The notes: generated by a model from the letters alone, not told the origin. A stretch of DNA of 41,934 nt from Actinomycetota bacterium (GCA_016870245.1 VGCA01000005.1:1-41934); one strand, 5' to 3'. Shown: positions 4,633 through 34,771, counted from the stretch's first letter. Translations and numbers: made by a program.

Positions 4633-4977
4633 GTGACCCCCCGACGTTCGGAGCGGAGCGACCCAAGATATGGAGCGCAGCGTGCGGTGCACAGGCGGTC
4701 GGATGACGAGCGGGACCGGGAAGCGAGCGGAGCGACCCAGAGATTTGGAGCGCAGCGTGCGGTGCGGAGGCGGTCGGATGACGAGCGGGACCGGGAAGCG
4801 AGCGGAGCGACCCAGAGATTTGGAGCGCAGCGTGCGGTGCGGAGGCGGTCGGATGACGAGCGGGACCGGGAAGCGAGCGGAGCGACCCAGAGATTTGGAG
4901 CGCAGCGAGCGTGCGGAGGCGGTCGGATGACGAGCGGGACCGGGAAGCGAGCGGAGCGACCCAAGATATGGATCTGA
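4633..4977 (+). CDS. Possible repeat-encoded leader ORF (25-residue repeats)
   Basis: This 114-codon ORF starts with GTG, 8 nt after a TANNNT box, and runs through the 74-75 nt tandem array. Because the inner unit is 75 nt, the array encodes a 25-residue repeat (..RRSDDERDREASGATQRFGAQRAV..) rich in Arg, Asp and Glu. Its stop lies just inside the next gene, whose ATG is at 4968, so translation of the two could be coupled. No known domain is seen. All three plus-strand frames stay open for much of the array, so an open frame alone is weak evidence. It may be a leader ORF, a real small repeat protein, or non-coding repeat. Confidence 0.25.
   Translation: MTPRRSERSDPRYGAQRAVHRRSDDERDREASGATQRFGAQRAVRRRSDDERDREASGATQRFGAQRAVRRRSDDERDREASGATQRFGAQRACGGGRMTSGTGKRAERPKIWI
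4651..4972 (+). repeat. Tandem repeat array, four 74-75 nt units plus a partial fifth
   Basis: Units begin with GAGCGGAGCGACCC at 4651, 4725, 4800, 4875 and 4949, giving spacings of 74, 75, 75 and 74. The second and third units are nearly identical. The first boundary and the partial fifth share AAGATATGGA, while boundaries two to four read AGAGATTTGGA. The fourth unit loses one base in its GCAGCGAGCG segment. The final partial unit ends on the start codon of the amidohydrolase at 4968, and the equivalent ATG exists in the first unit at 4670. With the flanks it occupies the only gap above 300 nt in the window (4467-4967). Confidence 0.93.
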
Positions 4978-6107
4978 TCATCGACGTCGACGCCCACGTG
5001 ACCGAGCCCGGCTCGCTGTGGCTCGACCGGCTCCCGTCGAAGTGGCACGACCGCGCGCCCCGGATGATCCGGGGCGACGACGGCAAGGACCGGTGGTACG
5101 TGGCCGGGGGAGAGGTCATGCTCACCGTCGGCCACACCGCCACCGCCGGCTGGCCGGCGCCGTTCCCGGCCGCGCCAGCGACGTTCGAGGAGACCCCGGC
5201 CGCGGCCCATGACCCTGTCGCCCGGCTCGCGCTCATGGACGACATCGGGATCGCCGCGCAGGTGCTGTACCCCAACGTCGGCGGTTTCGGGAACCAGGCC
5301 TTCCTCGCGATGGACGACGACGCGCTCCGGCTCGCGTGCGTGCAGGCGTACAACGACTGGATCACCGAGTGGGCGGCGGCCGACCCGGCCCGGCTGCTGC
5401 CCACGACCGCGGTGCCGTTCTGGGACATCGACGCCACCGTCGCCGAGGTCGAGCGGGGCGCGGCCATGGGGCACCGGGCGATCCTGTTCTCGGGCGAGCC
5501 GCAGCGCTTCGGCCTCCCCCTGCTCGGCGACCGCCACTGGGACCCGCTGTGGCGGGTGTCGGCCGAGACCGGCAACCCGATCTCGTTCCACCTCGGCGGC
5601 GGCGACTTCACCGGCCCGTTCACGCCCGAGCGCATGGCCGCGCACGGCATCGGCCCCACCTACGTGAAGGCCACCGTGCAGCTGTTCATGGACAACGGCG
5701 TGCAGATCCTCGACCTGCTGCTGTCGGGGGTGCTGCCCCGCCACCCCGACACGAAGTTCGTGTCGGTCGAGAGCGGGATCGGCTTCCTGCCGTTCGTGCT
5801 CGAGGCGGCCGACTACGCGTTCGGCGAGGCCGCGGTGCGCCGCGAGCGTCCCGAGTTCGAGCTGCTGCCGAGCGACTACTTCCACCGGCAGGTGTACGGC
5901 TGCTGGTTCTTCGAGCAGGTGGCCCTGCAGCGCCTCGTCGACAAGATCGGGGCGGGCAACATCCTCTTCGAGACCGACTACCCGCACCCCATCTGCCTGT
6001 ACGGCAACGTCCGGGAGAAGATCGACGCCGCCCTCGGCGACGCCGACCCGGCGCTGCGTCGCCAGCTCCTCTTCGACAACGCCGCCGCCTTGTACAAGGT
6101 CGCCTGA
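4968..6107 (+). CDS. Amidohydrolase family protein (amidohydrolase 2)
   Basis: This 379-residue TIM-barrel hydrolase or decarboxylase opens with MDLIIDVDAHVTEP, the first-strand metal motif (D-x-H) of the amidohydrolase-2/ACMSD-like group. It ends with the FETDYPHP signature carrying the late catalytic Asp. Relatives act on aromatic or heterocyclic acids or cyclic amides; the substrate here is unknown. The ATG at 4968 was chosen because the conserved first strand begins directly after it. The only upstream Shine-Dalgarno-like sequence is the purine-rich repeat unit itself (GAGCGGAGCG). It is followed 89 nt later by a paralogue sharing the overall motif order. Confidence 0.87.
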   Translation: MDLIIDVDAHVTEPGSLWLDRLPSKWHDRAPRMIRGDDGKDRWYVAGGEVMLTVGHTATAGWPAPFPAAPATFEETPAAAHDPVARLALMDDIGIAAQVLYPNVGGFGNQAFLAMDDDALRLACVQAYNDWITEWAAADPARLLPTTAVPFWDIDATVAEVERGAAMGHRAILFSGEPQRFGLPLLGDRHWDPLWRVSAETGNPISFHLGGGDFTGPFTPERMAAHGIGPTYVKATVQLFMDNGVQILDLLLSGVLPRHPDTKFVSVESGIGFLPFVLEAADYAFGEAAVRRERPEFELLPSDYFHRQVYGCWFFEQVALQRLVDKIGAGNILFETDYPHPICLYGNVREKIDAALGDADPALRRQLLFDNAAALYKVA

Positions 6108-6179
6108 CCCTTCTCGGCGCGGACTGCCGTCGGACGGCGGCCGGGGCAGCGGGGGCGGGTTGCGTGGGTGAGGCGAGGG

Positions 6180-6193
6180 TGACACCGTTGTCA
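6180..6193. promoter_or_regulatory. Inverted repeat TGACA-N4-TGTCA (possible operator)
   Basis: The 14-nt dyad TGACACCGTTGTCA ends 3 nt before the start codon at 6197. Its position would let a bound repressor block transcription, or a hairpin mask the start. The regulator is not identified. Confidence 0.4.
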
Positions 6194-6196
6194 GGT

Positions 6197-7390
6197 ATGG
6201 AGACGAGTGAGCTGTTCCACGACGCCGCCTCGATCGACTACCCGATCCTCGACTGCGACGCCCACGTCAACGAGCCGCCCGACACGTGGACGGCGCGGGT
6301 GCCGGCCAAGCTGCGCGACCGGGCCCCGAAGGTGCTCCACCGCGACGACGGCGACTACTGGTCGTTCGACGACGGCGCGAGCATCCGACCGGTCGGGCTG
6401 ACCGCCACCGCGGGCAAGTCGTTCCTCGACTTTTCGCCGGTGGGTGGCACCTACGCCACCATGCGGCCCGGGTCGTTCGACACCAAGGCCCGCCTCGCCG
6501 ACATGGACGTCGACGGGATGTGGCTCCAGGTGCTGTACCCGAGCGTCACGCTCTTCGGCGCCAAGGTGTACGGCTCCGACCCCGAGCTGCAGCTCGCGTG
6601 TGTGCGGGCCTACAACGACTGGCTCGCCGAGTTCTGCGAGGGCTCCGACGGCCGGCTGATCGGGCAGGCGATCCTCCCCACCACCGGGGTCGACGACATG
6701 ATCGCGGAGACCACCCGCTGCCTCGAGCTGGGCCACCGCGGCGTGGTGATCTCGTCGTTCCCCAACGGCGGGCTCGAGCCGCTCCCCGAGGACGAGCCGT
6801 TCTGGGCGCTGGCCCAGGAGACCCGCACGCCGGTGGCCGTCCACATCGGCTCCTTCCTGCCCACGATCGGCACCGCGGCGGGTGCGAAGCCACCCACCAT
6901 GGACGTGAAGCAGTTCATGGGCGCGGCCGGCGCCACGAAGTCGGGGTCGCAGACCCTGCCGGTGGTCAGCCAGCTGCTGTTCTCCGGGGTGTTCGAGAAG
7001 TACACCGAGATCGACCTGCTCCTCGTGGAGTCGAACATCGGGTGGATCCCCACGCTGCTCGAGCAGACCGACGACATGTTCTACCGCTACCGGTTCTTCA
7101 CCCACGGCGACGACATGCAGGTCACGCCGAGTCGCATCTTCCATCGCAACTTCTGGGCGTCGTTCATGCTCGACACCGTCGGCATGGACCTGCGTCACCG
7201 GCTCAACGTCGACCACCTCATGTGGTCGAGCGACTACCCGCACACCGGGTGCGACTGGCCCAACAGCCGCATCACGATCGAGCGCAACTTCCGCGGCGTG
7301 CCCAAGGTCGAGGTGAAGAAGATGCTGCACGACAACTGCAAGCGGCTCTACAAGCTCGACCACGTCCCCGACCGCGTCCCGCACCTCTGA
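6197..7390 (+). CDS. Amidohydrolase family protein (amidohydrolase 2)
   Basis: This 397-residue paralogue of the preceding gene has the same plan. DCDAHVNEPPDTW near residues 17-29 carries the first metal ligands, and WSSDYPHTGCDWPNS near the C-terminus carries the late Asp. The central part (LADMDVDGMWLQVLYPS, YNDWLAEFC) matches actinobacterial amidohydrolases found in catabolic clusters. I chose the ATG at 6197, which begins just upstream of the conserved strand and follows a dyad symmetry. It is followed after 11 nt by an SDR gene, so the two are probably one operon, perhaps hydrolysis or decarboxylation followed by oxidation of the product (inference). Confidence 0.88.
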   Translation: METSELFHDAASIDYPILDCDAHVNEPPDTWTARVPAKLRDRAPKVLHRDDGDYWSFDDGASIRPVGLTATAGKSFLDFSPVGGTYATMRPGSFDTKARLADMDVDGMWLQVLYPSVTLFGAKVYGSDPELQLACVRAYNDWLAEFCEGSDGRLIGQAILPTTGVDDMIAETTRCLELGHRGVVISSFPNGGLEPLPEDEPFWALAQETRTPVAVHIGSFLPTIGTAAGAKPPTMDVKQFMGAAGATKSGSQTLPVVSQLLFSGVFEKYTEIDLLLVESNIGWIPTLLEQTDDMFYRYRFFTHGDDMQVTPSRIFHRNFWASFMLDTVGMDLRHRLNVDHLMWSSDYPHTGCDWPNSRITIERNFRGVPKVEVKKMLHDNCKRLYKLDHVPDRVPHL

Positions 7391-7401
7391 TCGGGGGAGC
7401 G

Positions 7402-8184
7402 ATGGGCAGCGGGCGACTCGCCGGCAAGGTCGCGCTCATCACCGGCGCGGCGCGGGGCCAGGGCGCCGCCGAGGCCCGGCTGTTCGCGGCCGAGGGCGCA
7501 CGGGTGCTCCTCGGCGACGTGCTCGACGACGAAGCGGCTGCCGTCGCGACCGAGATCGGCGACGCCGCGGTGTCCCGTCACCTCGACGTCACGAGCGACG
7601 ACGACTGGCGGGCCGCCCTCGACGACGTCCGGGCGCGGTGGGGCGCGCTGCACGTACTGGTGAGCAACGCCGCGACGTTCACCCGGGCCCGGCGCATCAC
7701 CGACATGCCGGCCGACGAGTACGACCGCGTGCTCGCGGTCAACCAGACCGGCGTGTACCGCTCCGTGCACCACTGCGCGCCGCTGATCGCCGAGAGCGGC
7801 GGCGGCGCGATCACGTTGGTGTCGTCGGTCAACGGGCTGCTCGGCTCGCCGGGCGCCGCGGCGTACACCGCGAGCAAGTTCGCGGTGCGGGGCATGGCCA
7901 AGGTCGCCGCCCTCGAGCTGGGCCCGCTCGGCATCCGGGTCAACTCCCTGCACCCCGGAGCGATCGACACCTACATGATCTCGCCGCAGGTCTTCGGTGG
8001 GGTCGACGTGCGGGACAACATCGGCTCCACGCTGCCGCTCGGCCGGGTCGGCACGCCCGAGGAGGTGGCCGAGCTGGCCCTGTGGCTCTCTTCCGACGCC
8101 GCCTCCTACTGCACCGGCGCCGAGTTCGTGTGCGACGGCGGCATGACGGCCGGGCCCTTCCGATCACGCGCCACGAATGCGTAG
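7402..8184 (+). CDS. SDR family oxidoreductase (3-ketoacyl reductase / HSD type)
   Basis: This 260-residue classical SDR has the cofactor motif TGAARGQG near residues 14-21, SNAA in place of the usual NNAG, a catalytic Ser in SSVNG, and Y-T-A-S-K. The C-terminal CTGAEFVCDGG is the usual substrate-loop/dimer signature. The closest style is 3-alpha/20-beta-hydroxysteroid or 3-oxoacyl reductases. The ATG has a GGGGGAGC Shine-Dalgarno and begins 11 nt after the amidohydrolase stop, so co-transcription is likely. Confidence 0.9.
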   Translation: MGSGRLAGKVALITGAARGQGAAEARLFAAEGARVLLGDVLDDEAAAVATEIGDAAVSRHLDVTSDDDWRAALDDVRARWGALHVLVSNAATFTRARRITDMPADEYDRVLAVNQTGVYRSVHHCAPLIAESGGGAITLVSSVNGLLGSPGAAAYTASKFAVRGMAKVAALELGPLGIRVNSLHPGAIDTYMISPQVFGGVDVRDNIGSTLPLGRVGTPEEVAELALWLSSDAASYCTGAEFVCDGGMTAGPFRSRATNA

Positions 8185-8217
8185 CGGCGTGACTGCGACG
8201 GGAAAGTAGGCCCGCGA

Positions 8218-8223
8218 TACCGT
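8218..8223 (+). promoter_or_regulatory. -10 box TACCGT, leaderless spacing
   Basis: TACCGT lies 7 nt before the GTG at 8231, so the transcript would begin at or next to the start codon. It probably serves the SDR relic, MFS and amidohydrolase unit. Confidence 0.45.
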
Positions 8224-8230
8224 GCGCTCC

Positions 8231-8371
8231 GTGGGTGATGGTCAGGTGCGGTTCGACGGGTCGGTGGTGGTCGTCACCGGCGCCGGACGCAACCTCGGCC
8301 GGGCCGACGTCCTCGACGAGATCGTCGACGGCGTGATGCCCGAGGATGTCGACGGCACCATGCCCGCATGA
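8231..8371 (+). pseudogene. Relic of an SDR gene, 46 codons, internal part lost
   Basis: This GTG-started frame encodes 46 residues. The first part reads VRFDGSVVVVTGAGRNLGRA, the unmistakable first strand and glycine-rich cofactor loop of an SDR. It then jumps to a short acidic tail (DVLDEIVDG..MPA) with no catalytic Tyr/Lys region. A complete SDR needs about 250 residues, so an internal deletion is the simplest reading. Its TGA overlaps the ATG of the transporter (ATGA), and a TANNNT box precedes its GTG. It may persist as a translated leader that couples ribosomes into the transporter gene. Confidence 0.7.
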
Positions 8372-9663
8372 CCGACGCGGAGCGGCGGTCGGGCACCTCG
8401 TTCCGGGTCCTCCGGAACCGTGACTTCGCGGTCTTCTGGTCGGCCGCGCTCGTGTCGAACACGGGCAGCTGGATGCAGACGATCGCGGTGCCGTTCGTCG
8501 TGTTCCAGATGACGAAGTCCACGGCGTGGCTCGGCTTCGCCGCGTTCATGAACTTCGTCCCGGCGATGATCGCGGGCCCGTTCGGCGGCTCCTACGCCGA
8601 CCGGCACTCGCGCAAGAGGATCCTGCTCGTCACGCAGACGATGATGATGATGCTCGCGTTCGCGCTGTGGGGCATCTGGGTCGCCGGGGTGGCGACGCCC
8701 GGGCTCATCGTCGGCATCGTGTTCGTGTCGGGGTTCGTGGGTGGCGTCAACATCACCACGTGGCAGGCGTTCGTCACCCAGCTGGTCGACGAGCACGAGC
8801 TGGTCGACGCGGTGCGGCTCAACTCGATGCAGTTCATGGGCGCCCGCGCCTTCGGGCCCGCCATCGCCGGATTCGTGCTGGCGTACTCCGGGGCCGCGGC
8901 CGCGTTCCTCCTCAACGGCGTGTCGTTCCTGCTCGTGCTCGGCGCGCTCGTGGTCGTGCACCCCCGTCCCCAGGAGTACTCCGGCGACACCGGCCACGTC
9001 CTCGTCCACCTGCGGGAGGGCTGGCGGGTGATGCGGGCGCGCACGTCGCTCTACCTGCCCACCCTGATGATCGGCATCGTGTCGCTCCTCGGCACCTCGG
9101 TGATCCAGCTCGCGCCCGCCATGGCGAAGGACATGTTCGACGTCGGTCGCGGCAAGTACGGGCTCCTCGTCGCCGCGTTCGGGCTCGGCGCGGTCACAGG
9201 GTCGGTGGTCATCGCGTTCATCGCCGACCGGATGTTGCGGTCGTTCGTCGCGTCGGTGGGCATCGTCGGGCTGGCCGCGGGCGTGATGGCGCTCGGCCTC
9301 GCCCCCGTCTACGCCGTCGGGGTGGCGGCGATGTTCTTCATGGGGCTGACGTACCTCCTGCTCGCGACGTCGCTCAACACGGGCGTGCAGGCCCGCGTGG
9401 AGGACGAGTTCCGCGCGCGCGTCATGGCCATCTACCTCTCGTCGCTGCTCCTCGGCGTGCCGCTCGGCGCGCTGGTCCAGGGAAAGGCGGCCGAGCTGGT
9501 CGACCTGCGGGTGGTCATCGTCGTGTCGGGCGCGCTGCTCCTCGCCTTCGGCGTGTACACGATGGTTCGGTACGCCCGGCTGCGGCCGCTCGACGAGTCG
9601 CTCGTCGCGGTCGAGATCACCGGTGAGCTCGGGCTGCCGCCCGCGGTCGCCGGGGCCGACTGA
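8368..9663 (+). CDS. MFS transporter (enterobactin-exporter/TMS type)
   Basis: This 431-residue integral membrane protein has about 12 hydrophobic segments. After a cytoplasmic start the sequence FRVLRNRDFAVFWSAALVSNTG is typical of the MFS_3/EntS-like branch. The loop between helices 2 and 3 carries the MFS motif A (GGSYADRHSRKR). A second related loop (IADRM) follows mid-protein. It would move a small molecule, as exporter or importer, across the inner membrane. Its ATG overlaps the stop of the SDR relic, and the amidohydrolase follows 1 nt after its own stop. Transport of a compound handled by that hydrolase is a reasonable inference. Confidence 0.88.
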   Translation: MTDAERRSGTSFRVLRNRDFAVFWSAALVSNTGSWMQTIAVPFVVFQMTKSTAWLGFAAFMNFVPAMIAGPFGGSYADRHSRKRILLVTQTMMMMLAFALWGIWVAGVATPGLIVGIVFVSGFVGGVNITTWQAFVTQLVDEHELVDAVRLNSMQFMGARAFGPAIAGFVLAYSGAAAAFLLNGVSFLLVLGALVVVHPRPQEYSGDTGHVLVHLREGWRVMRARTSLYLPTLMIGIVSLLGTSVIQLAPAMAKDMFDVGRGKYGLLVAAFGLGAVTGSVVIAFIADRMLRSFVASVGIVGLAAGVMALGLAPVYAVGVAAMFFMGLTYLLLATSLNTGVQARVEDEFRARVMAIYLSSLLLGVPLGALVQGKAAELVDLRVVIVVSGALLLAFGVYTMVRYARLRPLDESLVAVEITGELGLPPAVAGAD

Positions 9664-9664
9664 C

Positions 9665-10480
9665 ATGGCCGGCGACCGCGTGGTCGACAGTCACGTGCAC
9701 GTGGTGAGCGACGACCTCGCGCGCCACCCGCTGCGGCCCGGCGTCGCGACCAATCCGTGGTACCTGGAACACCCCTGCTCGGGGCCGCAGCTGCGCGGGC
9801 TCATGGCGGAGGCGGGCGTGGATCGTGCGGTGCTGGTGCAGGGGGTCGGCGCCTACGAGTACGACAACGGCTACGTCCTCGAGGCCGCGGCGGCCGCGCC
9901 CGGGATCTTCACGCCGGTGGTGTGTGCCGACCGGCGGGCCGACGACCCCGTGCGCGATCTGCGCACGCTGCTCGGCGCGGGCGCTCGCGGCTACCGGTGG
10001 TTCTGCGTGCACGACGACCACCGGGTGGAGGAGCCCCGGGTCCTGTGGGACGCCCTCGCCGCGGCCGAGGTGCCGGTCGTCCCCACGTTCATGCCCGACG
10101 GGCTCGAGTCCTTCGCCCGCGTCGCGACCACCTACCCGGGCCTGCGGTTCGCCGTCGACCACGTCGCGTTCGTCGACTTCGGCCCGGGCATCCCGGACGC
10201 GCTGGGCGCCCTCGCACCGTTGCGAAACGTCTACCTCAAGGTCTCGACCCACGCGCTGCACACGGTCGCGGCACACGGCGATCCCGCCGACGCGGTGGCC
10301 GCGCTGGCCGCGGCGTTCGGCGGGCGGCTCCTGTGGGGCTCCGACTGGTCGCAGACCCACCACGCGCCGTATCCCGAGATCGTGGAGGAGGGGCGGCGGG
10401 CCGCCGCCAAGCTCTCCGACGCCGACCGCGCCGCCTACCTCGGGGCCAACGCCCTCACCCTCTGGCCCGAGCTCACCTGA
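9665..10480 (+). CDS. Amidohydrolase family protein
   Basis: This 271-residue compact TIM-barrel hydrolase starts MAGDRVVDSHVHVVSDD with the D-S-H-V-H metal motif. Later motifs are the FAVDHVAF strand and LLWGSDWSQTHH, which holds the catalytic Asp. It resembles the amidohydrolase-2 lactonase group (PDC/4-sulfomuconolactonase-like). Lactone hydrolysis is plausible but unproven. The start lies 1 nt after the transporter stop, so expression is surely linked. The gene ends directly against the repeat/hairpin element. Confidence 0.86.
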   Translation: MAGDRVVDSHVHVVSDDLARHPLRPGVATNPWYLEHPCSGPQLRGLMAEAGVDRAVLVQGVGAYEYDNGYVLEAAAAAPGIFTPVVCADRRADDPVRDLRTLLGAGARGYRWFCVHDDHRVEEPRVLWDALAAAEVPVVPTFMPDGLESFARVATTYPGLRFAVDHVAFVDFGPGIPDALGALAPLRNVYLKVSTHALHTVAAHGDPADAVAALAAAFGGRLLWGSDWSQTHHAPYPEIVEEGRRAAAKLSDADRAAYLGANALTLWPELT

Positions 10481-10606: not shown

Positions 10607-11824
10607 TCAGGTGACGGTGCCGGCGACCTTGAGCTCGATGAGCTCGTCCCACGTGTACCCGAGGTCGAGCAGCACCTCGTCGGTGTGCTCACCGTGGCTC
10701 GGCGCCGGCCGCAGCTCGTGCGCGGCGCCGTCGAACTGGGCGGGCGCGCCCACGAGGTCGTAGTCGCGACCGTCGGCGTCGGTGACCACCTGGATGTAGC
10801 CGTTGGCGACGACCTGGTGGTCGCGCTTGAGCTCCGGTGCCCGCTGCACGGGTGCCCACGCGCCCGACAGGGTGGTGAACGCCTCACGCCACTCGTCGAG
10901 GGTCCGGGCGCGGAACGCCTCCTTCAGCACGTCGACGCACTCCTCGCCGTGCTCGGCCCGCACCGCCGCGTTCGCGAAGCGCGGGTCGTCGATGAGGTCG
11001 GGCCGCCCGAGGTGGGTGCACAGGTCGGGCCAGAACCGGTCGGCCTGCATCATGTTGAGGAACACGAAGCGGCCGTCCTTGGTCGGATAGTTGGCCACCA
11101 GCGGGTTGCCGCCCCGGCCGCCGGCGAACCGGAGCACGTCGTCGAGCCCGAGGGCGCCGCTCATGGCGATGTCGCCCTGGAGCTGCCACATGCCGGTGTT
11201 GAGCAGCGAGATGTCGACCACCCGGGCCACTCCGGTGCGCTCCCGCTCGAACAGCGCGGCGGCGATGCCCCCGGCGATCGCCATCCCGCCCATCACGTCG
11301 CCGATCGCGGGCCGGGCCCCCAGCGGCTCGGTGAGCTCGGCGGGGCGCAGGGTGTCGGCCATCCCCGCGCGGGCCCAGTAGGCGGTGCCGTCGAACGCGG
11401 CCTTGTCGGCGTCGGGGCCGTGCGCGCCCTGCCCGTGGCCGCGCACGTAGATCACGTCCGGGTTGTCGGCCCGGATGTCGTCGACGTCGATGCGTAGCCT
11501 GCCCCGCACCGACGGGAGCATGTTGGTGAGGAACACGTCTGCCGTCGCGACCAGCTTCGCGAGGACCGCCCGCCCCTCCTCCGACGCGATGTCGAGGCCC
11601 ACGCTGCGCTTGCCCCGGTTGGGCACCTGCATCATGAAGTCGCCGGCGCTGCCGGCCCCCGGCATGACGCCGAGCGCGGCGAGCCCACGTTGAGGGTCAC
11701 CGGTGACCGGGTGCTCGATCTTGAGCACGTCGGCGCCCCAGTCGGCCAGGATCGCCCCGGCCGCGGGCACGAAGGTCCACGAGGCGACCTCCACCACTCG
11801 CACACCGCGCATCGTCTCGGTCAC
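10607..11824 (-). CDS. Family III CoA-transferase (CaiB/BaiF)
   Basis: This 405-residue enzyme would move CoA between carboxylic acids. It begins MRGVRVVEVASWTFVPAAGAILADWGADVLKIE, the family's nucleotide-binding start. The catalytic aspartate is visible as Asp176 in AIGDVMGG. The start codon is GTG at 11824, chosen over an ATG four codons later. The SD GGGAGGAAC is well spaced for it, and the GTG overlaps the frameshift-corrected stop of the upstream SDR (GTGA). It is the last gene of a three-gene unit with that SDR and a zinc alcohol dehydrogenase, suggesting alcohol to aldehyde/acid to CoA ester processing (inference). Confidence 0.9.
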   Translation of the reverse strand: MTETMRGVRVVEVASWTFVPAAGAILADWGADVLKIEHPVTGDPQRGLAALGVMPGAGSAGDFMMQVPNRGKRSVGLDIASEEGRAVLAKLVATADVFLTNMLPSVRGRLRIDVDDIRADNPDVIYVRGHGQGAHGPDADKAAFDGTAYWARAGMADTLRPAELTEPLGARPAIGDVMGGMAIAGGIAAALFERERTGVARVVDISLLNTGMWQLQGDIAMSGALGLDDVLRFAGGRGGNPLVANYPTKDGRFVFLNMMQADRFWPDLCTHLGRPDLIDDPRFANAAVRAEHGEECVDVLKEAFRARTLDEWREAFTTLSGAWAPVQRAPELKRDHQVVANGYIQVVTDADGRDYDLVGAPAQFDGAAHELRPAPSHGEHTDEVLLDLGYTWDELIELKVAGTVT

Positions 11825-17936: not shown

Positions 17937-18821
17937 TCAGAGCTCGCCCCGCTGGAGGAGGTCGACGGGGTCCTGCATGCGGACCATGCCGAGGTAGCCG
18001 CCGCCGCGGCCGATGGAGTCGTGGATCGCGTAGCCGAGCAGCTCCTGGGCCTCACGGGGGAGCGTTGCCGCATACGCGGGCGGTGCCGAGAGGTAGTTGT
18101 TCTCCTCGGTGCGCAGCCAGCCGAGTGTGTAGCTGAGGTGCGCGGCCCGGCGGGGGATGTCGGTGACGTTGGACCCGCCGGCGTGGATCGTGCCGCCCGA
18201 GTAGATCACCGCGGAGCCGGCCGGCATCTCGGCGTACGCGATCTGGTCGGGCTCCACCGGGGTGGCCATCTGCTCCACGGCCGGGAGCCCCCGGTCGGCC
18301 CAGGTGTGGCTGCCCGGGACCACGCGGGTGGCGCCGTTGTCCTTGGTGAAGTCGACGAAGGCGATCACCGACGCCACCTGCAGCTCCGGGTGCGGCCAGG
18401 GCACGTCGTTCCACACCAGCTCGTCGCGGTGCATCCACTGCTCCTCGGCGCCGGGGCCCCGCTGGAGCCAGTGACCGAGGTTGAGCTGATAGCGGGAGCA
18501 CGACGGCAGGAGGATCCGGTCGCACAGCGCGAGGTAGAGCGGGTGGCACATCACGTCGACGGCGAAGGTGCGCGACAGGCCCGGCACCCCGGCGACCTGC
18601 CGGGTGTTGGGCCCGTGGAACGCCGACATCACGGGGTTGAAGAGGCTCTCGTCGGGGTCGGCGGCCGCGACCGACGCCGCGACCTCGTCGTTGACCCGTT
18701 CCACCACGGCAGCCGCGAGCAACCCCTCGACGATCACCACGCCGTCGAGGGCGATCGTGGCGGCGACGGCGTCGGGGTCGGCGAGCGCGGCGTCGAGCGA
18801 GTAGCGGGTGACGGTGGCCAT
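17937..18821 (-). CDS. Phytanoyl-CoA dioxygenase (PhyH) family protein
   Basis: This 294-residue protein has the Fe(II)/2-oxoglutarate oxygenase triad, His131-x-Asp133 (WMHRDEL) and His213 (TIHAGGSN). PRRAAH a little later supplies an Arg for 2-oxoglutarate. Members hydroxylate acyl-CoAs or small metabolites next to a carbonyl, which fits a lipid-catabolic setting. The start at 18821 has a -10-like TAGCGT box 6 nt upstream, so the mRNA is probably leaderless. The YtcJ-like amidohydrolase lies 85 nt further up and is transcribed the same way. Confidence 0.88.
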   Translation of the reverse strand: MATVTRYSLDAALADPDAVAATIALDGVVIVEGLLAAAVVERVNDEVAASVAAADPDESLFNPVMSAFHGPNTRQVAGVPGLSRTFAVDVMCHPLYLALCDRILLPSCSRYQLNLGHWLQRGPGAEEQWMHRDELVWNDVPWPHPELQVASVIAFVDFTKDNGATRVVPGSHTWADRGLPAVEQMATPVEPDQIAYAEMPAGSAVIYSGGTIHAGGSNVTDIPRRAAHLSYTLGWLRTEENNYLSAPPAYAATLPREAQELLGYAIHDSIGRGGGYLGMVRMQDPVDLLQRGEL

Positions 18822-18906: not shown

Positions 18907-20442
18907 TCAGGAGGAGACGAGGGCGCCGCGCTTGTATGTCTGGAGGACCCGGGCACCCGTGTCGGCCCGGTCGAGCACCACGAGGTCGGCGAGCTTTCCC
19001 GGCGTGATCGAGCCCCGCTCGTGCTCCTGGCCGCCGGCGTAGGCGGCGCCGACGGTGTATGCCTCGAGCCAGTCGGTGAACGGGACCGACTGCTCCGGCT
19101 CGAAGTCCTTGCCCGACGCGGTGCGGCGCAGCACGCCGAGGTCAGCGCCCCACACCGGGCTGCTCGGCGCGCACGGGTCGTCGCTCGACCCCGCCAGGCG
19201 CACGCCGGCCCCGGCGAGCCCGGCGAACGCGAGCCAATGGTGGTCGTCGAAGCGCACGCCGCTGGCCTGCTCGCCCACGTGCTGCACGAAGCCGGGCTGC
19301 ACCACGGCGACGGCGCCGAGGTCGGCGAGCGCCCGCCACTGCGCGGGGCTGGTGACGCCCGCGTGCTCCACCCGGAACCGGTGGTCGACCCCGGGGTGGC
19401 GCCGGGCGATCACCCCGGCGGTGTCGATCATGGCCTGCACCCCGGCGTTGCCCATGGCGTGGACGCCGATGCGGAAGCCCCGGTCGGCGGCCTGCACCGC
19501 GTGCTCTTGGAGGTCGCCGAACAGGGTGCCGAGTCGGAACGGCCGGCCGCCCACACGCGCGTCGAGCGCAATGGCCACGCCGCCGTCGGCGAACAGCTTC
19601 ACCGCACCCACCCGGAAGCGGTCGTCGCCCTCGCCGGTGGGCGGACCGTCGAGCCGGGCGGTGTGCTCGTTGAGCAGCAGCGCGGCGGGGTGGGGCATGC
19701 CCACCACGTCGACGGGCAGGGTGCCGGCCCGGACCATCGTGGCGAACAGCGCCTCGGCCTCGGGGGCGCAGGCGGCGTCGTGCACGCAGGTGATCCCCTC
19801 GGCGAGCAGGGCCCGGGCCCGGTCGGCCACGTGCTCCGCCCAGCGGTCGGGATCGGTGAAGTCCGCCATCGACCGGGCGTGGGCGACCGACCACGCCTGC
19901 TCGACCAACATGCCGGTGGCCTCGCCCGAGCCGTCACGCGCGATCTCGCCGGCGGGCGGGTCGGGGGTGTCGCGCCCGATGCCCAGCGCGTCGAGGCCGG
20001 CCGTGCTCACCACGCACTGGTGCAGTGTGTAGTCGGCGACGATCACCGGGCGGTCGAGCCCGGCGGCGTCGAGGTTGTGGCGGGTGATGCCGGCGCCGGC
20101 CCCCATGAGGTCGATCCCCTGGCAGCGCACCCACGCGGTGTCGGGCCACGCGGCAGCCTGCGCGTGGATGGCGGCGACCAGGGTGTCGCGGTCGCCCACG
20201 CCGCGCACGTCGTGCCACTGGGGGTGCAGCGCCGACACGGAGAGGTGGTTGTGCGCGTCGATCAGCCCCGGGACGAGCACGCCGCCGGCGAGGTCGACGA
20301 CCTCGGCGCCCGCGACGTCGGGGCGCGTCAGCAGCTCCCGACCGCCGACTGCGACGATTCGCCCGCCGTCGACCACCACCACCTCGGCGCCCGCGGTCGC
20401 GCCGTCCATCGTGAGGACGGTGCCGCCGGTGAACGCCCGCAC
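18907..20442 (-). CDS. Amidohydrolase family 3 protein (YtcJ-like)
   Basis: This 511-residue protein has the amidohydrolase-3 plan. A beta-sandwich N-terminus leads to the metal motif His64-Asn-His66 (GLIDAHNH). VKLFADGG, GVHAMGN, FRVEHAG and the late SSDDPCAP Asp region follow. It ends with a second beta-sandwich strand (GKLADLVVLDR). YtcJ-like enzymes hydrolyse formamides or related amides; the substrate here is unknown. The start is GTG at 20442, 4 nt after the stop of the TMEM254-like gene, so it is the last gene of that operon. Confidence 0.88.
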   Translation of the reverse strand: MRAFTGGTVLTMDGATAGAEVVVVDGGRIVAVGGRELLTRPDVAGAEVVDLAGGVLVPGLIDAHNHLSVSALHPQWHDVRGVGDRDTLVAAIHAQAAAWPDTAWVRCQGIDLMGAGAGITRHNLDAAGLDRPVIVADYTLHQCVVSTAGLDALGIGRDTPDPPAGEIARDGSGEATGMLVEQAWSVAHARSMADFTDPDRWAEHVADRARALLAEGITCVHDAACAPEAEALFATMVRAGTLPVDVVGMPHPAALLLNEHTARLDGPPTGEGDDRFRVGAVKLFADGGVAIALDARVGGRPFRLGTLFGDLQEHAVQAADRGFRIGVHAMGNAGVQAMIDTAGVIARRHPGVDHRFRVEHAGVTSPAQWRALADLGAVAVVQPGFVQHVGEQASGVRFDDHHWLAFAGLAGAGVRLAGSSDDPCAPSSPVWGADLGVLRRTASGKDFEPEQSVPFTDWLEAYTVGAAYAGGQEHERGSITPGKLADLVVLDRADTGARVLQTYKRGALVSS

Positions 20443-20446: not shown

Positions 20447-20746
20447 TCAGCCCTCGAGGAGGCGGGCTTCCTCGCGCTCGGCGAGGAGCTCGTGGAGCGC
20501 GATCAGCGACGGGAAGCCGACCGCCAGGGTCTGCAGGCCCCACTTCCAGGCGGCGTCGTCGAGGCCCTCGCGCGTCGCGGTGCGGTAGGCGTAGCCGGCC
20601 TCGACCACGTGGGTCACCACCGCGGCGCCGAACACCAGGCGCGTGAGCTTCGACTTCTTGCGGGCGGCGATGATCCCGTTGGCGACGAGTCCGCCGAAGT
20701 TGGAGACCCACCACATGGGGGCCACGGGAACGAAGGTCGGCTGCAC
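20447..20746 (-). CDS. TMEM254 / DUF4499-like small membrane protein
   Basis: This 99-residue membrane protein has about three hydrophobic segments. The pattern H-x2-E-x2-YA, then W-x-LQT, then G-x2-SL-x2-L near residues 46-84 matches what I recall of human TMEM254 (DUF4499). The start is GTG at 20746, chosen for its AGGAG Shine-Dalgarno. It is followed 4 nt later by the amidohydrolase and preceded 47 nt upstream by the OB-fold gene. Function is unknown. It may organise or feed substrate to the adjacent thiolase/OB-fold complex (inference). Confidence 0.72.
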   Translation of the reverse strand: MQPTFVPVAPMWWVSNFGGLVANGIIAARKKSKLTRLVFGAAVVTHVVEAGYAYRTATREGLDDAAWKWGLQTLAVGFPSLIALHELLAEREEARLLEG

Positions 20747-20793
20747 GCGGGTCTCCTGGGCTGGGGGAGCGGGGGTCCGCCGGGGACGGAACG

Positions 20794-21291
20794 CTACGCG
20801 GGGACGAACAGCGGCGCGGTCACCGAGCCGTCGACCCCGGTGAAGGCGATCTCGCGGAACGTCACCGTCACGGGCATGTCGAAGGTGAGGTCGGCCGGAT
20901 CGCAGTCGACCATCCGGGTGGGCACCCGCACCGCGGGGTCCTCCTCGAGGGCGACGAGCGCGGGCACGTAGGGGACCATGTCGGCGAACTGGGGGAGGAA
21001 CGGGTGGGCGACGACCACCCACGAGAACAGGGTGCCCCGGCCGCTCACCTCGGACCACGAATAGGGCTCCCCGTCGCAGTACAGGCACGTGGCCTTCGGG
21101 TACCAGCGGTAGCGCCCGCAGGTGTCGCACACCGGGATGCGCAGCTCGTGGCGGTCGGCCGCGGCCCAGAACTCGGCGGTGTACGGCCAGGTGACGTCGG
21201 GCAGGGGGAAGGTGGACCGGGTGATGTGCCCCTCCACCCGATGCGAGGTCTCGTCCGTCTTGACCTTGGGCTTCGGGGTCGACGCGGTCAT
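20794..21291 (-). CDS. OB-fold/zinc-ribbon protein (DUF35, ChsH2-like)
   Basis: This 165-residue protein carries a rubredoxin-like zinc ribbon (Cys-x2-Cys, 10 residues, Cys-x2-Cys in CDTCG..CLYCD) followed by an acyl-CoA-binding OB fold (GTLFSWVVVAHPF and later strands). These DUF35 proteins act as partners of thiolase-fold enzymes or hydratases. An example is the steroid side-chain aldolase Ltp2 with ChsH2. The thiolase-like gene is immediately upstream, 4 nt away, so a complex with it is very likely. The ATG was chosen because it follows that stop directly. Confidence 0.88.
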   Translation of the reverse strand: MTASTPKPKVKTDETSHRVEGHITRSTFPLPDVTWPYTAEFWAAADRHELRIPVCDTCGRYRWYPKATCLYCDGEPYSWSEVSGRGTLFSWVVVAHPFLPQFADMVPYVPALVALEEDPAVRVPTRMVDCDPADLTFDMPVTVTFREIAFTGVDGSVTAPLFVPA

Positions 21292-21295
21292 CGGA

Positions 21296-22507
21296 TCAGC
21301 CCTTCGTGAGCACGAGCGTGGAGCCCTGCGGGCCGGTGTAGCCGCCGTACACGCCGACCTCGCAGTCGGCCACCTGGGCCGCGGCCTCGCCCCGGAGCTG
21401 GCGCACCACCTCCACGACGTGCGAGATCCCGAGCACGTAGGCGTGGGAGAGCATCCCGCCATGGGTGTTGTGCGCGAGCTTGCCGGAGTCGTAGTGCAAC
21501 GTGTCGCCGGCCACGAACTCGCCGCCCGCGCCCTTCTCGCAGAACCCGCTGTCCTCGATCTGCATGAGCGTGACGATGGTGAACGGGTCGTAGCAGGTGA
21601 ACAGGTCGACGTCGGCGGGCGTGAGCCCGGCCATCGAGAACGCGGCCGGCGCCGAGAACACCGACGGCGTCGACGTGAACGCCGGCTGCTGTGCCCAGTG
21701 GGTGCCGGTGTACGCGTTGCCCATCCCCAGGCCGGCCACGATCGCCGGCCGCTTCGGGGCGTCGGCCGCCCGCTCGGGCGTGGTCATGATGTAGGCGCCG
21801 CCGCCGTCGGAGATGAGGCAGCAGTCCTCCTTGCGGAACGGGTCGACGAACTTGGGCGACGCGAGGTACCGCTCCATCGACAGCGGCTTCTCGTGCATCA
21901 CCGCCTCGGGGTTGAGGTTCGCGTGCCGGCGGCAGGCCACCGCGATCGCGCCGAGCTGCTCCTCGGTGGTGCCGAAGTCGTGCATGTGCCGGCGGGCGAT
22001 CGTCGCGAAGTACACGGGCTGGGGGAACCAGCCGAGCGGGATCTCGAGGTTCTGCTTGAACAGGTCCTGCGCGTGGGCCTCACCCGGCCCGCCGGTCATC
22101 TCACCCCGTTGAGTGGCCCAGGCAACGCCGAAGGTGTTGAGCACGTACGTCGCGCGCCCGTCGCGCAGTGCCTCGGCCGCGTGGTACGGCGCGGTGGCCG
22201 CGCCCACGGTGCCGCCGCCCCGCTTCGACTCCCAGATGTCGTGGCTGGTGCCGAAGTACTCGTGGAACGCGGCAACGCCGAACTGCTCGGGCATCGGCGA
22301 GTACATGAGCCCGTCGATGTCGGTGGGCTCCAGGCCGGCGTCGGCCAGGGCGCGTTCGACGGCCTGACCGACGATCTCGGTGGTGGTGCGGCCCGACGCC
22401 TTCGACATGTCGGAGTCGCCCACGCCGCAGATCGCGACCTGCCCGTTCACGTCGGCGAAGTCGGTGGCGTAGCCCCACTCGCCCGGTTCGATGGCCATGT
22501 GCGTCAT
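21296..22507 (-). CDS. Thiolase-fold protein lacking the catalytic Cys (Ltp2-like)
   Basis: This 403-residue thiolase-superfamily protein of the SCP-x/lipid-transfer branch keeps the fold (EIVGQAVERALADAGL, THGG near the C-terminus, GGYTGP). At the place of the nucleophilic-Cys loop it reads SKRGGGTVGAA (about residues 94-104), so the thiolase Cys appears missing. That is a feature of the Ltp2-type retro-aldolases, which split side-chain hydroxyacyl-CoAs and need a DUF35 partner. That partner is encoded next to it. Aldolase rather than thiolase activity is therefore my preferred reading. Its ATG overlaps the CoA-transferase stop (ATGA). Confidence 0.83.
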   Translation of the reverse strand: MTHMAIEPGEWGYATDFADVNGQVAICGVGDSDMSKASGRTTTEIVGQAVERALADAGLEPTDIDGLMYSPMPEQFGVAAFHEYFGTSHDIWESKRGGGTVGAATAPYHAAEALRDGRATYVLNTFGVAWATQRGEMTGGPGEAHAQDLFKQNLEIPLGWFPQPVYFATIARRHMHDFGTTEEQLGAIAVACRRHANLNPEAVMHEKPLSMERYLASPKFVDPFRKEDCCLISDGGGAYIMTTPERAADAPKRPAIVAGLGMGNAYTGTHWAQQPAFTSTPSVFSAPAAFSMAGLTPADVDLFTCYDPFTIVTLMQIEDSGFCEKGAGGEFVAGDTLHYDSGKLAHNTHGGMLSHAYVLGISHVVEVVRQLRGEAAAQVADCEVGVYGGYTGPQGSTLVLTKG

Positions 22508-24849
22508 GCCCCCTTCGGGGTCTCGCCGATGATGCCGATCTCGCGCAGGCGGGCGAGCTCCGCCGCGTCGAGCCCGAGGATGCCGCCGAGCACCTCGTCG
22601 TTGTGCTGCCCGAGCGTGGGCGCCGGGCGGCGCAGCCACGGTGCGGTGATCCCCGCGAACCGCCACGGCGCGTTGGGGACCTGCACCGGCCCGGTCACCG
22701 GGTGGTCCTCGGTCTCGAAGAACCGGCGGTGGTCGAGCTGGGGGTTGAAGCGGATGTCGCGGCCGTCGCACACGTAGCCCGCCGGCACGCCCGCGGCGCA
22801 CAGCTCCTCCGACAGCACGCGGGCGTTGCGGTCGGCCGTCCACTCGCCGAGGTGGGCGTCGAGCCGGTCGTGCGCGGCGCGTCGCCCGTCGGCGGTCGCG
22901 AGCTCGGGATCGGCCGCCCAGGCGGGGTCGCCCAGGAACCGGCGCAGCGCGTCCCAATGCTCGTCGGTCGCGACGGCGATGGCGACCCACTCCTCGTCGC
23001 CCGCGCAGCGGTACACGCCCTGCGGCGCGCTCACCGGGCCGCGGTTGCCGTCACGGGTGAGCAGGGTGCCCGACGCCTGGTGCTCCACGAGCACCTCGGC
23101 CGCCGCGTTGAGCGCGGCCTCGATCATCGTCGCCTCGACCAGTCGGCCGTCGCCGGTGCGATCGCGCTCGCGCAGCGCGAGGATGGTGGCGAGCACCGCG
23201 TGGGCCCCGGCGAGCGGGTCGCACGCGCCCCGGTGCAGCACCGGCGGTCCGTCGGCCCACCCGGTGACCCAGGCCATGCCGGTGATCGACTCCATCGTCT
23301 GCGCGAACCCGGTGCGCTCGCGCCACGGGCCGTCGAGCCCGTAGGCCGGCATGCGGGTCATCACCAGGCGGGGGTTGGCCTCGTGCAGCACGTCGAAGGT
23401 GAGACCGAAGTTGTCCATCACCCGGGGCGTGTAGTTCTCGATGAGCGCGTCGGACTCCGCCGCGAGGCGGAGCAGCAGGTCCTTGCCCTCCTCGCGGGTG
23501 AGGTCGAGCGTGATGCCCCGCTTGGTGTTGTTGGCCCCGTGGAAGATGAAGCCCCACTCGTACCACTGCTCGGTGGGGGGCTGCTTCGTGGCGGAGTAGC
23601 GCATGAGATCGGGCCGGGTGACCGACTCCACCTTGATCACGTCGGCGCCGAGCAGGGCGAGCAGGTGCCCGCCCGCCGGCCCGGCCCACCACGCCGTGAG
23701 GTCGAGGATCCGCACGCCGTCGAGGGGGAGTCGCCGGTCGCCGGTGGGGGCGGTGCGATCCCGGGGGTGCCAGTCGATCGTGCCCGCGTGCTCGCCGAGC
23801 GCGGGCGCCTTCGCGAACGGCCGGGGCTCCACACCGGAGATCTTGTACGGAGCCCGGGGCTGCACGAACCGGCCCGACGGCGACGGCACGAACGCGCCCC
23901 GCACCTGGAAGTGGTCGAAGGTGGTGACGGTCGCGCCGTTGCCCACCGGGCCGCTCGGGATGCGCAGCTCCTCGGCCTCGGCCAGCACCTGCGCGCTCGG
24001 TCGGGGCGTCGTGTACTCGTGGGCCATGGCGAGGAACTCGTCGCGTCCGGCCCAACGGCTGGGGTGGCGGAACCAACGCTCGTCGTCGAGCAGGTCGGGG
24101 CGGCCGATGAGCACCATGAAGTCGCTGAGCTGCTGGACGCTGTTGGTGGTGAAGCACACGTAGCCGTCGGCCGTCGGCTCGATCGAGGGCACCTCGACCG
24201 TGCGGGTGGGCCGCACCGGCGGCGGCCAGCCGACCATGTCGGCCATCAGCGCCGTGTAGGTGTTCATGGTGAGCGACATCACCGCGAGCAGCGCGACGTC
24301 GACGTGCTCGCCATGGCCGCTGCGCTGGGCCTCACGCAGCGCGGCGGCCGCGGCGACCGCCGCGTAGACGCCGCCGACCCACTCGCCCATGCGCCCGCCC
24401 GCGTAGAAGGGCGGCGCGTCGGGCAGTCCCCGGCCGGCGATCGACCCGCACTCGGCCTGGATCGTGAACTCGGTCGCCGGACGGTCGCGCCAGGGCCCGT
24501 CCTGGCCGAACGGGCTGATCGACACCACCACGAGCGACGGGTTGCGCTCCAGGAGCGGCGCGACGGGGAAGGTGCCCGGCGCCGCGTCGTGCACCACGAT
24601 GTCGGCGTCGACGCAGAGGTCCACCACCTCGGGATCGGTGATGGTGCCGACGATCCCACGCTTGGTGGTGTTGCAGAACTCGAACAGCGCGCCCGTGCCC
24701 TGGGCCGCCGACGGGCCCCAGCGCCGCAGCGGGTCGCCGGCGGGCGGCTCGACCTTCACCACGTCGGCGCCGGCGTCGGCCAGGAGCTTGGTGCAGTACG
24801 GCCCCGCGATCTCGGTCGACAGGTCGACCACCCGGATTCCGTCGAGCAC
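22504..24849 (-). CDS. Tandem-fused family III CoA-transferase
   Basis: This 781-residue protein contains two complete CaiB/BaiF-type halves. The first starts LDGIRVVDLSTEIAGPYC and spans about residues 1-370. The second starts LDGVRILDLTAWWAGPAGG near 385. The second half has the expected catalytic Asp544 (GACDPLAG). The aligned place in the first half reads GRMGEWVGG, with Gly where Asp should be and Glu156 next to it, so the first half may be inactive or altered. Native enzymes are interlocked dimers, so the fusion may mimic a heterodimer. The start is GTG at 24849 with a GAGGGGGGACA Shine-Dalgarno; the longer upstream frame is Arg-rich and unlikely. It leads the operon with the thiolase and OB-fold genes. 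Confidence 0.88.
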   Translation of the reverse strand: MLDGIRVVDLSTEIAGPYCTKLLADAGADVVKVEPPAGDPLRRWGPSAAQGTGALFEFCNTTKRGIVGTITDPEVVDLCVDADIVVHDAAPGTFPVAPLLERNPSLVVVSISPFGQDGPWRDRPATEFTIQAECGSIAGRGLPDAPPFYAGGRMGEWVGGVYAAVAAAAALREAQRSGHGEHVDVALLAVMSLTMNTYTALMADMVGWPPPVRPTRTVEVPSIEPTADGYVCFTTNSVQQLSDFMVLIGRPDLLDDERWFRHPSRWAGRDEFLAMAHEYTTPRPSAQVLAEAEELRIPSGPVGNGATVTTFDHFQVRGAFVPSPSGRFVQPRAPYKISGVEPRPFAKAPALGEHAGTIDWHPRDRTAPTGDRRLPLDGVRILDLTAWWAGPAGGHLLALLGADVIKVESVTRPDLMRYSATKQPPTEQWYEWGFIFHGANNTKRGITLDLTREEGKDLLLRLAAESDALIENYTPRVMDNFGLTFDVLHEANPRLVMTRMPAYGLDGPWRERTGFAQTMESITGMAWVTGWADGPPVLHRGACDPLAGAHAVLATILALRERDRTGDGRLVEATMIEAALNAAAEVLVEHQASGTLLTRDGNRGPVSAPQGVYRCAGDEEWVAIAVATDEHWDALRRFLGDPAWAADPELATADGRRAAHDRLDAHLGEWTADRNARVLSEELCAAGVPAGYVCDGRDIRFNPQLDHRRFFETEDHPVTGPVQVPNAPWRFAGITAPWLRRPAPTLGQHNDEVLGGILGLDAAELARLREIGIIGETPKGA

Positions 24850-24957: not shown

Positions 24958-26121
24958 TCAGCGGCTCCCTGCCGCGCGGCGGGCCTCCCGCACGACGGCG
25001 CGCTCGAGCCGGGTGGTGTCGATGGACGACTCGTCGGCCTGGTTGGTCGCGATCGTGAACGCGAGGTCGCGGTCGGGGCAGGCGTAGGCAACCGTGCCCC
25101 AGAAGCCGGGGTGGCCCCAGCAGGGGACCCCGGCGATCCGGTACCGGAACAGGCCGAGCGCCCCGCCCTCGGCCCGGCCCGGGCGCGAGACCGTCCGCAT
25201 CGTCTCGAGCGTGGCCGGGTCGGCGAAGACGTCGCCGTCGAAGAGGGCACGGAAGAAGGTGGTCACGTCGCCGACGGTCGACACCAGTCCGCCCCCGCCG
25301 TAGAGGTCGTAGGAGGGGTGCAGCGTGGCGCCGTCGAACTCCCGCCCGTCGTACTGGTGCGCGAGCGGCGGGAGACCCGGCGGGGCGGCTTCCAGCGCCT
25401 CCCACCAGGTGTCGGCCAGCCCGAGCGTGTCGAAGTCGAGCACGGTGCGGACGGCCGTGCCGATGTCGACGCTGGTGGACCGCTCGATGATCTCGCCGAG
25501 GAGGACGTAGCCGGTGTCGGAGTAGTGGAACTTGGCGCCGGGCGGGGCGAGGGGCTCGCCGTGGTCCACCGCGAGCCGGACCTGCTCCTCCCGCGTCCAC
25601 AGGTGTGACGGATCGGCAGCAGTGCGGGCGTCGTACGCGGCGCTGCTCGCGTAGTCGAAGAGGCCTGCGGTGTGGCCGAGCAGCTGGCGGACGGTGATCC
25701 GGTCGATGGGGTAGCGGTCGGCGGCCAGGATCGCCGCGGTCCGGGGCGACAGGAGGGTGTCGATCGGGGCGTCGAGGTCGAGGCGGCCCTGCTCGGCCAG
25801 CTTCAGGGCCGTCGCGGCGACGAAGGTCTTGGTGACGCTGGCGATGCGGAACGGCGTGTCGACGGTGAGTGGCCGTTTCGTCGCGACGTCGGCGTACCCG
25901 GCAGCCACCGCGAGGGCGAGCCCGGGTGCCCGCGCGTCCACTGCCTCGCCGGGCATCTCCGGATGGTCGCGCAGGTCGCGGGCCACCACCGCCGCGACGC
26001 GTGTGTCGGGCGCGTCGCGCGTGTCGGGCGCGTCGCCGGCGGCGCCGGCCGGGGCTGCAACCGCGCCGGTGAGCGCGAGCAGCCCGACCACGGCCAGGAG
26101 TCGTCCGCCGTCGCCGGGCAC
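24958..26121 (-). CDS. Secreted serine hydrolase (beta-lactamase class C fold)
   Basis: This protein of about 387 residues begins with a signal-peptide-like segment (RLLAVVGLLALTGAVAAPAGA). It then has Ser95-x-x-Lys98 (SVTK), the Tyr motif YSD and a late HPGFWG in place of KTG. This is the penicillin-binding-protein/esterase branch of class C beta-lactamases, so an esterase or amidase outside the membrane is likely. A duplicated DAPDTR hexapeptide follows the signal. I prefer GTG 26121, 7 nt after a TACGGT box, over GTG 26130, which overlaps that box. It is divergent from the Gfo/Idh gene. Confidence 0.85.
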   Translation of the reverse strand: MPGDGGRLLAVVGLLALTGAVAAPAGAAGDAPDTRDAPDTRVAAVVARDLRDHPEMPGEAVDARAPGLALAVAAGYADVATKRPLTVDTPFRIASVTKTFVAATALKLAEQGRLDLDAPIDTLLSPRTAAILAADRYPIDRITVRQLLGHTAGLFDYASSAAYDARTAADPSHLWTREEQVRLAVDHGEPLAPPGAKFHYSDTGYVLLGEIIERSTSVDIGTAVRTVLDFDTLGLADTWWEALEAAPPGLPPLAHQYDGREFDGATLHPSYDLYGGGGLVSTVGDVTTFFRALFDGDVFADPATLETMRTVSRPGRAEGGALGLFRYRIAGVPCWGHPGFWGTVAYACPDRDLAFTIATNQADESSIDTTRLERAVVREARRAAGSR

Positions 26122-26128
26122 GAGGTCC

Positions 26129-26134
26129 ACCGTA
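26129..26134 (-). promoter_or_regulatory. -10 box TACGGT, leaderless spacing
   Basis: TACGGT on the minus strand lies 7 nt before GTG 26121. Confidence 0.5.
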
Positions 26135-33133: not shown

Positions 33134-33181
33134 CGGGTCACCTCCTCGTTGCACGGTCGCGCCGGCGGGACCGGACGCGCC

Positions 33182-34192: not shown

Positions 34193-34206
34193 GACCGGTC
34201 ACCATA
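34193..34206. promoter_or_regulatory. GACCGGTC palindrome and -10-like box in a 33-nt divergent gap
   Basis: GACCGGTC (34193-34200) directly precedes the minus-strand start. TATGGT (minus strand, 34201-34206) follows it as a possible -10. A regulator here could affect both divergent genes. Confidence 0.35.
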
Positions 34207-34225
34207 ACGGCATGGAGCCGAGACC

Positions 34226-34771
34226 ATGAGCAGCGAGATCGACGACCTGCGGACCCGGATCGAGCGCATCGAGGCCACCGAGCAGATCCGCCAGCTCGCG
34301 GCCCGCTACGCCCTGGCCCTCGACAGCCGTGACGTCGACGCGCTCGTCGCGCTGTTCGTCCCCGACGTGATCGCCGGCGACGGCCGCCAGGGCCGCGCGG
34401 CCCTGGCCGAGTGGTTCGATCCGGTCCTGCGGCCCTACGGGATCACGTTCCACCTGATCGGGAACCACATCATCAAGTTCGACGACGACGACCACGCCAC
34501 CGGCGTCGTGTACTGCCGGCCCGAGCACGAGGTGGGCGACGACTGGATCGTCATGCCCATGCAGTACTGGGACCGCTACGAGCGGCGCGACGACTGCTGG
34601 TACTTCAAGAGCCGCAAGCCGTTCGTGTTCTACGCCGCCGACGTTCTCGAGCACCCCCTGCGGGTCGACGACCGGTTCCGCTTCCCCGGCAACCCCATGC
34701 TCGACCGGGCCGAGCTCCCCGAGCGCTGGGCGACCTGGCAGACCTTCTGGGCCCGCACCGGCTCCGAGTGA
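34226..34771 (+). CDS. NTF2/SnoaL-like protein
   Basis: This 181-residue member of the NTF2/SnoaL superfamily begins with IRQLAARYALALDSRDVDALVALF, the first helix and Asp region of SnoaL_4-type proteins. It then has THIIKFD-like and YWDRYERRDDCWYFKSR strands. Possible reactions include hydration, isomerisation or dehydration of a steroid- or polyketide-like acyl intermediate, but none can be fixed. The ATG has a GGAGCC ribosome site. It is divergent from an LLM gene and converges on the AMP-ligase at 34837-36393. Confidence 0.82.
   Translation: MSSEIDDLRTRIERIEATEQIRQLAARYALALDSRDVDALVALFVPDVIAGDGRQGRAALAEWFDPVLRPYGITFHLIGNHIIKFDDDDHATGVVYCRPEHEVGDDWIVMPMQYWDRYERRDDCWYFKSRKPFVFYAADVLEHPLRVDDRFRFPGNPMLDRAELPERWATWQTFWARTGSE

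Follow-up and report, generated by a model that had tools for sequence, protein, structure and literature searches.

A conserved actinobacterial operon pairing a fused CoA-transferase with a Cys-less thiolase-fold protein suggests hydratase-free carbon-chain cleavage

Among the papers and structures we found, only two Cys-less thiolase-fold aldolases have been characterised, Ltp2 and Sal, and both act on steroid side chains. In the Thermomonospora curvata enzyme (TcLtp2), which pairs with the DUF35 protein ChsH2, Tyr294 of a YDHF motif is the base, Tyr344 the acid, and His296 lies in the oxyanion hole; the Comamonas testosteroni enzyme (CtSal), whose DUF35 partner is Shy, relies on Tyr302 and Cys304 (PMC12329534). 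In the toluene pathway, the bbs system offers a different precedent: the coenzyme A (CoA)-transferase BbsEF draws CoA from succinyl-CoA, and β-oxidation yields benzoyl-CoA and succinyl-CoA again, making succinyl-CoA both the CoA donor and a thiolase product (PMC10818641). Here we describe an operon on the minus strand (24849-20447) of a 41,934-nucleotide (nt) stretch of DNA from an Actinomycetota bacterium (VGCA01000005.1; hereafter the window), in which genes for a fused CoA-transferase, a Cys-less thiolase-fold protein, a DUF35 protein and a TMEM254-family protein follow one another (Table 1). The original prediction, made from the window's sequence alone, had proposed these four genes as a side-chain cleavage unit led by the CoA-transferase. 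Coordinates and domain matches confirmed all four genes, the leading position of the transferase (GTG start at 24849) and the junctions: the transferase and thiolase genes overlap by 4 nt (ATGA), and gaps of 4 nt and 47 nt precede the DUF35 and TMEM254 genes, respectively.

The thiolase-fold protein had its best PDB sequence matches in 4u4e, 6ok1 (TcLtp2) and 9myr (CtSal). We modelled it with AlphaFold2 (mean predicted local distance difference test score (pLDDT) 90.7), and a Foldseek search with the model placed the Ltp2-ChsH2(DUF35) aldolase 6ok1 first (template modelling scores 0.84/0.89), making it the nearest solved structure. The predicted lack of a nucleophilic Cys was borne out: in the window protein GGGTVGA stands where thiolases have CASGG, so it lacks the nucleophile of SCP2-type and degradative thiolases, and none of 24 aligned clade members has a Cys at either the nucleophile or the CxG position. 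A true catalytic Cys elsewhere in the alignment, which the original prediction had named as evidence against its proposal, was also looked for. The only invariant Cys residues are C230 and C323, and because both also occur in Ltp2, where neither is the thiolase nucleophile, such a residue is not indicated. A plain thiolase was rejected because the nucleophilic Cys is missing.

The protein carries Y306 (in YDPF), H349 (NTHGG), Y357 (HAY) and, at the CxG site, Y390; these four, together with D307, P308, F309 and H355, do not vary across the 24 clade members. Tyr294 of TcLtp2 aligns with Y306 and Tyr344 with Y357, whereas His296 aligns with P308, all 24 members having YDPF and not the Ltp2-type YDHF. 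These sequence and fold comparisons support reading the protein as an aldolase, an activity that is predicted. Further Foldseek matches with the same fold and a DUF35 partner were PhlABC and benzoylsuccinyl-CoA thiolase, which would suit a different C-C acting acyl-CoA enzyme (a decarboxylase, or a PhlABC-like acyltransferase) with the DUF35 protein as a structural partner, and both the YDPF motif and Y390 are unlike any characterised enzyme aligned. However, thiolases of this fold use the nucleophilic Cys that is absent here, PhlC also relies on one, and the two aldolase Tyr residues are invariant; we regard an enzyme of this other kind as rather unlikely.

The transferase carries two CoA_transf_3 domains in one polypeptide. 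At the catalytic Asp position, the N-terminal half has Glu (GEW, GEF or TEY/TEW) and the C-terminal half has Asp (DP) in 21 of 21 aligned proteins, and the pattern is the same in the transferases of linked loci from other families. The best PDB match of the C half was BbsF (9fn0_B), and BbsE (9fn0_A) ranked second for the N half. The protein is thus a family III member (CoA_transf_3 with the catalytic Asp) with one Asp-bearing and one Asp-less part, as in BbsEF, present here as fused halves. Because the halves match BbsF and BbsE, and because BbsE also lacks the Asp in the N-half alignment, the transferase looks like a fused BbsE/BbsF-type pair with a predicted inactive N half and active C half. 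The fusion, singled out from the start as unusual, is therefore real, and it is recurrent. The bbs operon (BbsEF, 9fn0; BbsAB, 7pxp) likewise combines a two-part, one-Asp family III transferase with a thiolase fold and DUF35, but here the transferase is a single polypeptide, the thiolase lacks its nucleophilic Cys, and genes for a dehydrogenase or a hydratase are missing from the surroundings. Another fused CoA-transferase, the mycobacterial Rv1866, is reportedly also of the tandem family III type and of similar length. Literature searches on Rv1866/Rv1867 and on the pairing of such a transferase with an Ltp2-type protein returned nothing relevant.

Orthologues of the thiolase-fold protein (E≤1e-85) were present in 34 of the 58 genomes of the order, with uncultured Acidimicrobiia and other actinobacterial metagenome-assembled genomes as the named near relatives. 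In a phylum sample of 396 genomes, with at most four candidates scored per genome, only the window's genome matched at E≤1e-75. A DUF35 gene adjoins the thiolase gene at every locus with enough sequence, and by our own count a tandem CoA-transferase gene is adjacent at 26 of the 31 assessable loci. Two gene orders occur: transferase, thiolase, DUF35, TMEM254 in the window's family (f1), and thiolase, DUF35, transferase in families f10, f12, f6 and f9, sometimes with an Amidohydro_2 gene between the last two. In both orders, -4 nt junctions are found repeatedly. Identity to the window's transferase is only about 35-44% among transferases of the second order, and their continued linkage implies that the coupling persisted through much divergence. 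The gene set is not a chance neighbourhood, since a tandem transferase directly adjoins just 2 of the 31 thiolase-fold genes in the window's genome (those of the window, contig C5, and of contig C23). The conservation of gene neighbourhood that had been proposed as a check on the unit thus holds, within the order, for the thiolase, DUF35 and transferase genes.

With the transferase as so constant a companion, and with both thiolase Cys residues lost, the thiolase-fold protein might be catalytically dead and, together with DUF35, provide the transferase with a binding scaffold. We consider this quite improbable. The motifs YDPF, THGG, SHAYVLG and YGGYT are almost or fully invariant in 24 sequences down to approximately 60% identity, a constraint that an inert scaffold does not need, and the five loci without an adjacent transferase nevertheless retain the thiolase and DUF35 genes.

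Tandem transferases were also observed in other settings. In Frankia sp. AgB1.9 (L088:4302-8403), a DUF35 gene, an amidohydrolase-like gene and a tandem transferase gene (52% identical) follow one another, and the 12.5 kb examined there gave no match to the thiolase. Plasmid-borne tandem transferases of Rhodococcus have neither a thiolase nor a DUF35 gene nearby, and one in Variovorax is followed downstream by genes for two more CoA-transferases, a thiolase-family protein and an OB-fold protein.

The original prediction had likened the arrangement to the Ltp2/ChsH2 retro-aldolases of steroid side-chain degradation. The likeness stands for the Cys-less fold, both catalytic Tyr residues and the adjacent DUF35 gene, but the protein is 32% identical to TcLtp2, falls outside the Ltp2 and Sal clades, and has Pro in place of the oxyanion His. 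In addition, the DUF35 protein is stand-alone here whereas that of the Ltp2 system is fused to MaoC (ChsH2), a CoA-transferase leads, and no ChsH1/ChsH2 or acyl-CoA dehydrogenase is found. Sal shares the Cys-less fold, the first Tyr of YDxx and the DUF35 partner; it differs in having YDCY, with catalytic Cys304, and Gln352 where the window protein has Pro308 and Tyr357. The best PDB sequence match, the thiolase-like protein 4u4e from Sphaerobacter thermophilus, also lacks the nucleophilic Cys and has YDSF, but it belongs to another clade and has THPG where the window protein has HAYV. The unit varies the theme of Ltp2/Sal-type DUF35 aldolases, and what is new is its partner, the CoA-transferase.

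The window's genome (3.36 Mb) holds 31 thiolase-fold genes, about 31 DUF35 stretches and 38 CoA_transf_3 stretches, and many of the thiolase-fold proteins lack the Cys and carry a YDxF motif. In a maximum-likelihood tree, 30 Cys-less, mostly YDxF rows formed one group (100/99), in which Sal fell with the proteins of contigs C213 and C272, TcLtp2 with that of contig C83, and 4u4e with those of contigs C4, C65 and C102; a separate clade (100/100, stem 0.79) comprised the window protein with its orthologues. Contig C83 (L048:1-3302) encodes an igr-like set of DUF35, acyl-CoA dehydrogenase and MaoC followed by the Ltp2-like protein. Because the window protein has its own clade, and because the igr-like locus and the Sal-like proteins lie elsewhere, it is, judged by sequence, neither the Ltp2 nor the Sal of its genome.

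The unit could still represent a third branch of steroid (sterol or bile acid) side-chain aldolases, next to Ltp2 and Sal, in which the CoA-transferase takes the place of the acyl-CoA ligase: no characterised structures are nearer than those of the two steroid aldolases, and the genome also has the igr-like locus and Sal-like proteins. However, the Ltp2 and Sal functions thereby already have gene copies of their own, and neither MaoC nor acyl-CoA dehydrogenase genes were among the annotated neighbours of the unit in the loci examined, with no MaoC within 4 kb of the window thiolase gene. The recurrent neighbours across the order are instead Amidohydro_2, MFS_3 and single CaiB genes; genes of the Amidohydro_2 and MFS_3 types flank the unit in a conserved manner at f1 and f10 loci, and eight loci from families other than f1 have a CaiB cluster next to it. 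The separate igr-like locus, the two Sal-like copies and the missing MaoC and acyl-CoA dehydrogenase genes weaken the steroid side-chain role first proposed, and we think it unlikely. The analysis gave no direct support for a steroid substrate, although no search of the genome was aimed at steroid ring-degradation genes.

Our preferred reading, which we hold with about even confidence on the grounds of homology, predicted fold, gene linkage and conserved residues, is that the operon specifies a retro-aldolase module primed by a CoA-transferase. In this scheme, CoA would be shifted by the fused transferase from a small acyl-CoA to a carboxylic acid that probably has, or receives, a β-hydroxyl. 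A dimer of the Cys-less thiolase-fold enzyme, with DUF35 at its flanks, would then cut the Cα-Cβ bond, with Y306 removing the hydroxyl proton and Y357 protonating the enolate. Cleavage would release a short acyl-CoA together with a ketone or aldehyde, and the acyl-CoA could serve as the CoA donor of the next round; such CoA recycling is proposed by analogy with the toluene pathway. In family f1, TMEM254 may keep the complex at the membrane. From these comparisons we infer the aldolase activity, the recycling, the DUF35 contact and the TMEM254 role alike. A tentative extension is that the module is self-priming: the acyl-CoA that a Cys-less Tyr-Tyr aldolase sets free might let the fused transferase activate the next acid, giving ATP-free cleavage of hydroxy-acid chains without hydratase or dehydrogenase, on a substrate that is perhaps membrane-held.

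On contig C23 (L053:5468-9516) of the same genome, a tandem CoA-transferase gene again accompanies genes for a Cys-less thiolase of the YDHF type and a DUF35 protein, surrounded by Amidohydro_2, carboxyltransferase, SDR and thioesterase genes. We counted this second set in favour of a retro-aldolase module, although its transferase does not repeat the Glu/Asp arrangement when aligned. Several further points weigh against the module. The replacement of His296 by Pro308 means that the oxyanion hole must differ from that of Ltp2, no characterised aldolase falls within the clade in the tree, and an adjacent transferase is missing at 5 of the 31 loci. No gene for forming the β-hydroxyl is conserved across the order, PhyH being found only in the window's genus. 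Overall, the conserved operon suggests hydratase-free carbon-chain cutting. The window's genome alone has many more uncharacterised Cys-less members, and because this clade is well defined, with a fixed partner set and sharp residue predictions, it is a good entry to the question of whether such aldolases act on compounds other than steroids and can do without a hydratase. For the substrate, the fused one-Asp transferase provides a handle.

The DUF35 protein has four Zn-type Cys residues and PDB matches to 9myr_B, 6esq_E and 6ok1_B; it is the putative partner of the thiolase-fold protein. The TMEM254-like protein is a real member of its family (PF14934, 54.3 bits against a cut-off of 23), with four predicted helices, an AlphaFold2 pLDDT of 93.4 and invariant residues H46, E49, Q72-T73 and P79-S80-L81. 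A fold search against the PDB gave no usable match, and a literature search on TMEM254 returned nothing relevant. In family f1 its gene usually overlaps that of DUF35 by 4 nt, and at one locus (L075) it lies beside a tandem transferase in the absence of the thiolase orthologue. Outside f1, in the order and the phylum, it was not beside the unit in the loci of approximately 3 kb examined, and the neighbours of other TMEM254 genes had no common theme. Its place in the window's operon thus stands, but it is an extra confined to f1; we rejected it as a core part of the unit, given the lack of linkage elsewhere. Our guess is that it acts as a membrane anchor or tether.

The operon does not end with the fourth gene, where the original prediction had drawn its limit. 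An Amidohydro_3 gene begins 2-4 nt past TMEM254 in three genomes of the window's genus (4 nt in the window), and there the operon extends into it. The PhyH gene probably also belongs to the operon: it follows the amidohydrolase gene after 85 nt in the window and after 9 nt in L064, where the order of the two is the same. The Amidohydro_3 gene is also present in L063.

Table 1. Genes of the operon and accessory genes in the window
Feature	Position	Strand	Details
Tandem (fused) family III CoA-transferase	22504..24849	-	781 amino acids; PF02515 x2; GTG start 24849, stop 22504
Cys-less thiolase-fold protein, putative retro-aldolase	21296..22507	-	403 amino acids; PF22691
DUF35 protein, stand-alone, zinc ribbon and OB fold	20794..21291	-	PF12172 (zf-ChsH2) and PF01796 (OB_ChsH2_C)
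TMEM254-family protein	20447..20746	-	99 amino acids; PF14934, E=1.7e-14
Amidohydro_3 family hydrolase	18907..20442	-	PF07969; next operon gene in the window's genus
PhyH-family Fe(II)/2-oxoglutarate dioxygenase	17937..18821	-	PF05721; co-directional
Single CoA_transf_3 gene, accessory, outside the operon	10607..11824	-	PF02515
Amidohydro_2, MFS_3 and Amidohydro_2 genes, accessory	4911..10480	+	PF04909, PF05977, PF04909

Upstream of the operon, a beta-lactamase-fold gene (24958-26130) had no match by tblastn in the relatives' loci and was left out of the unit. More catabolic neighbours lie at 32189-38005 of the window, where luciferase-like monooxygenases and AMP-binding ligases are encoded by two genes each.

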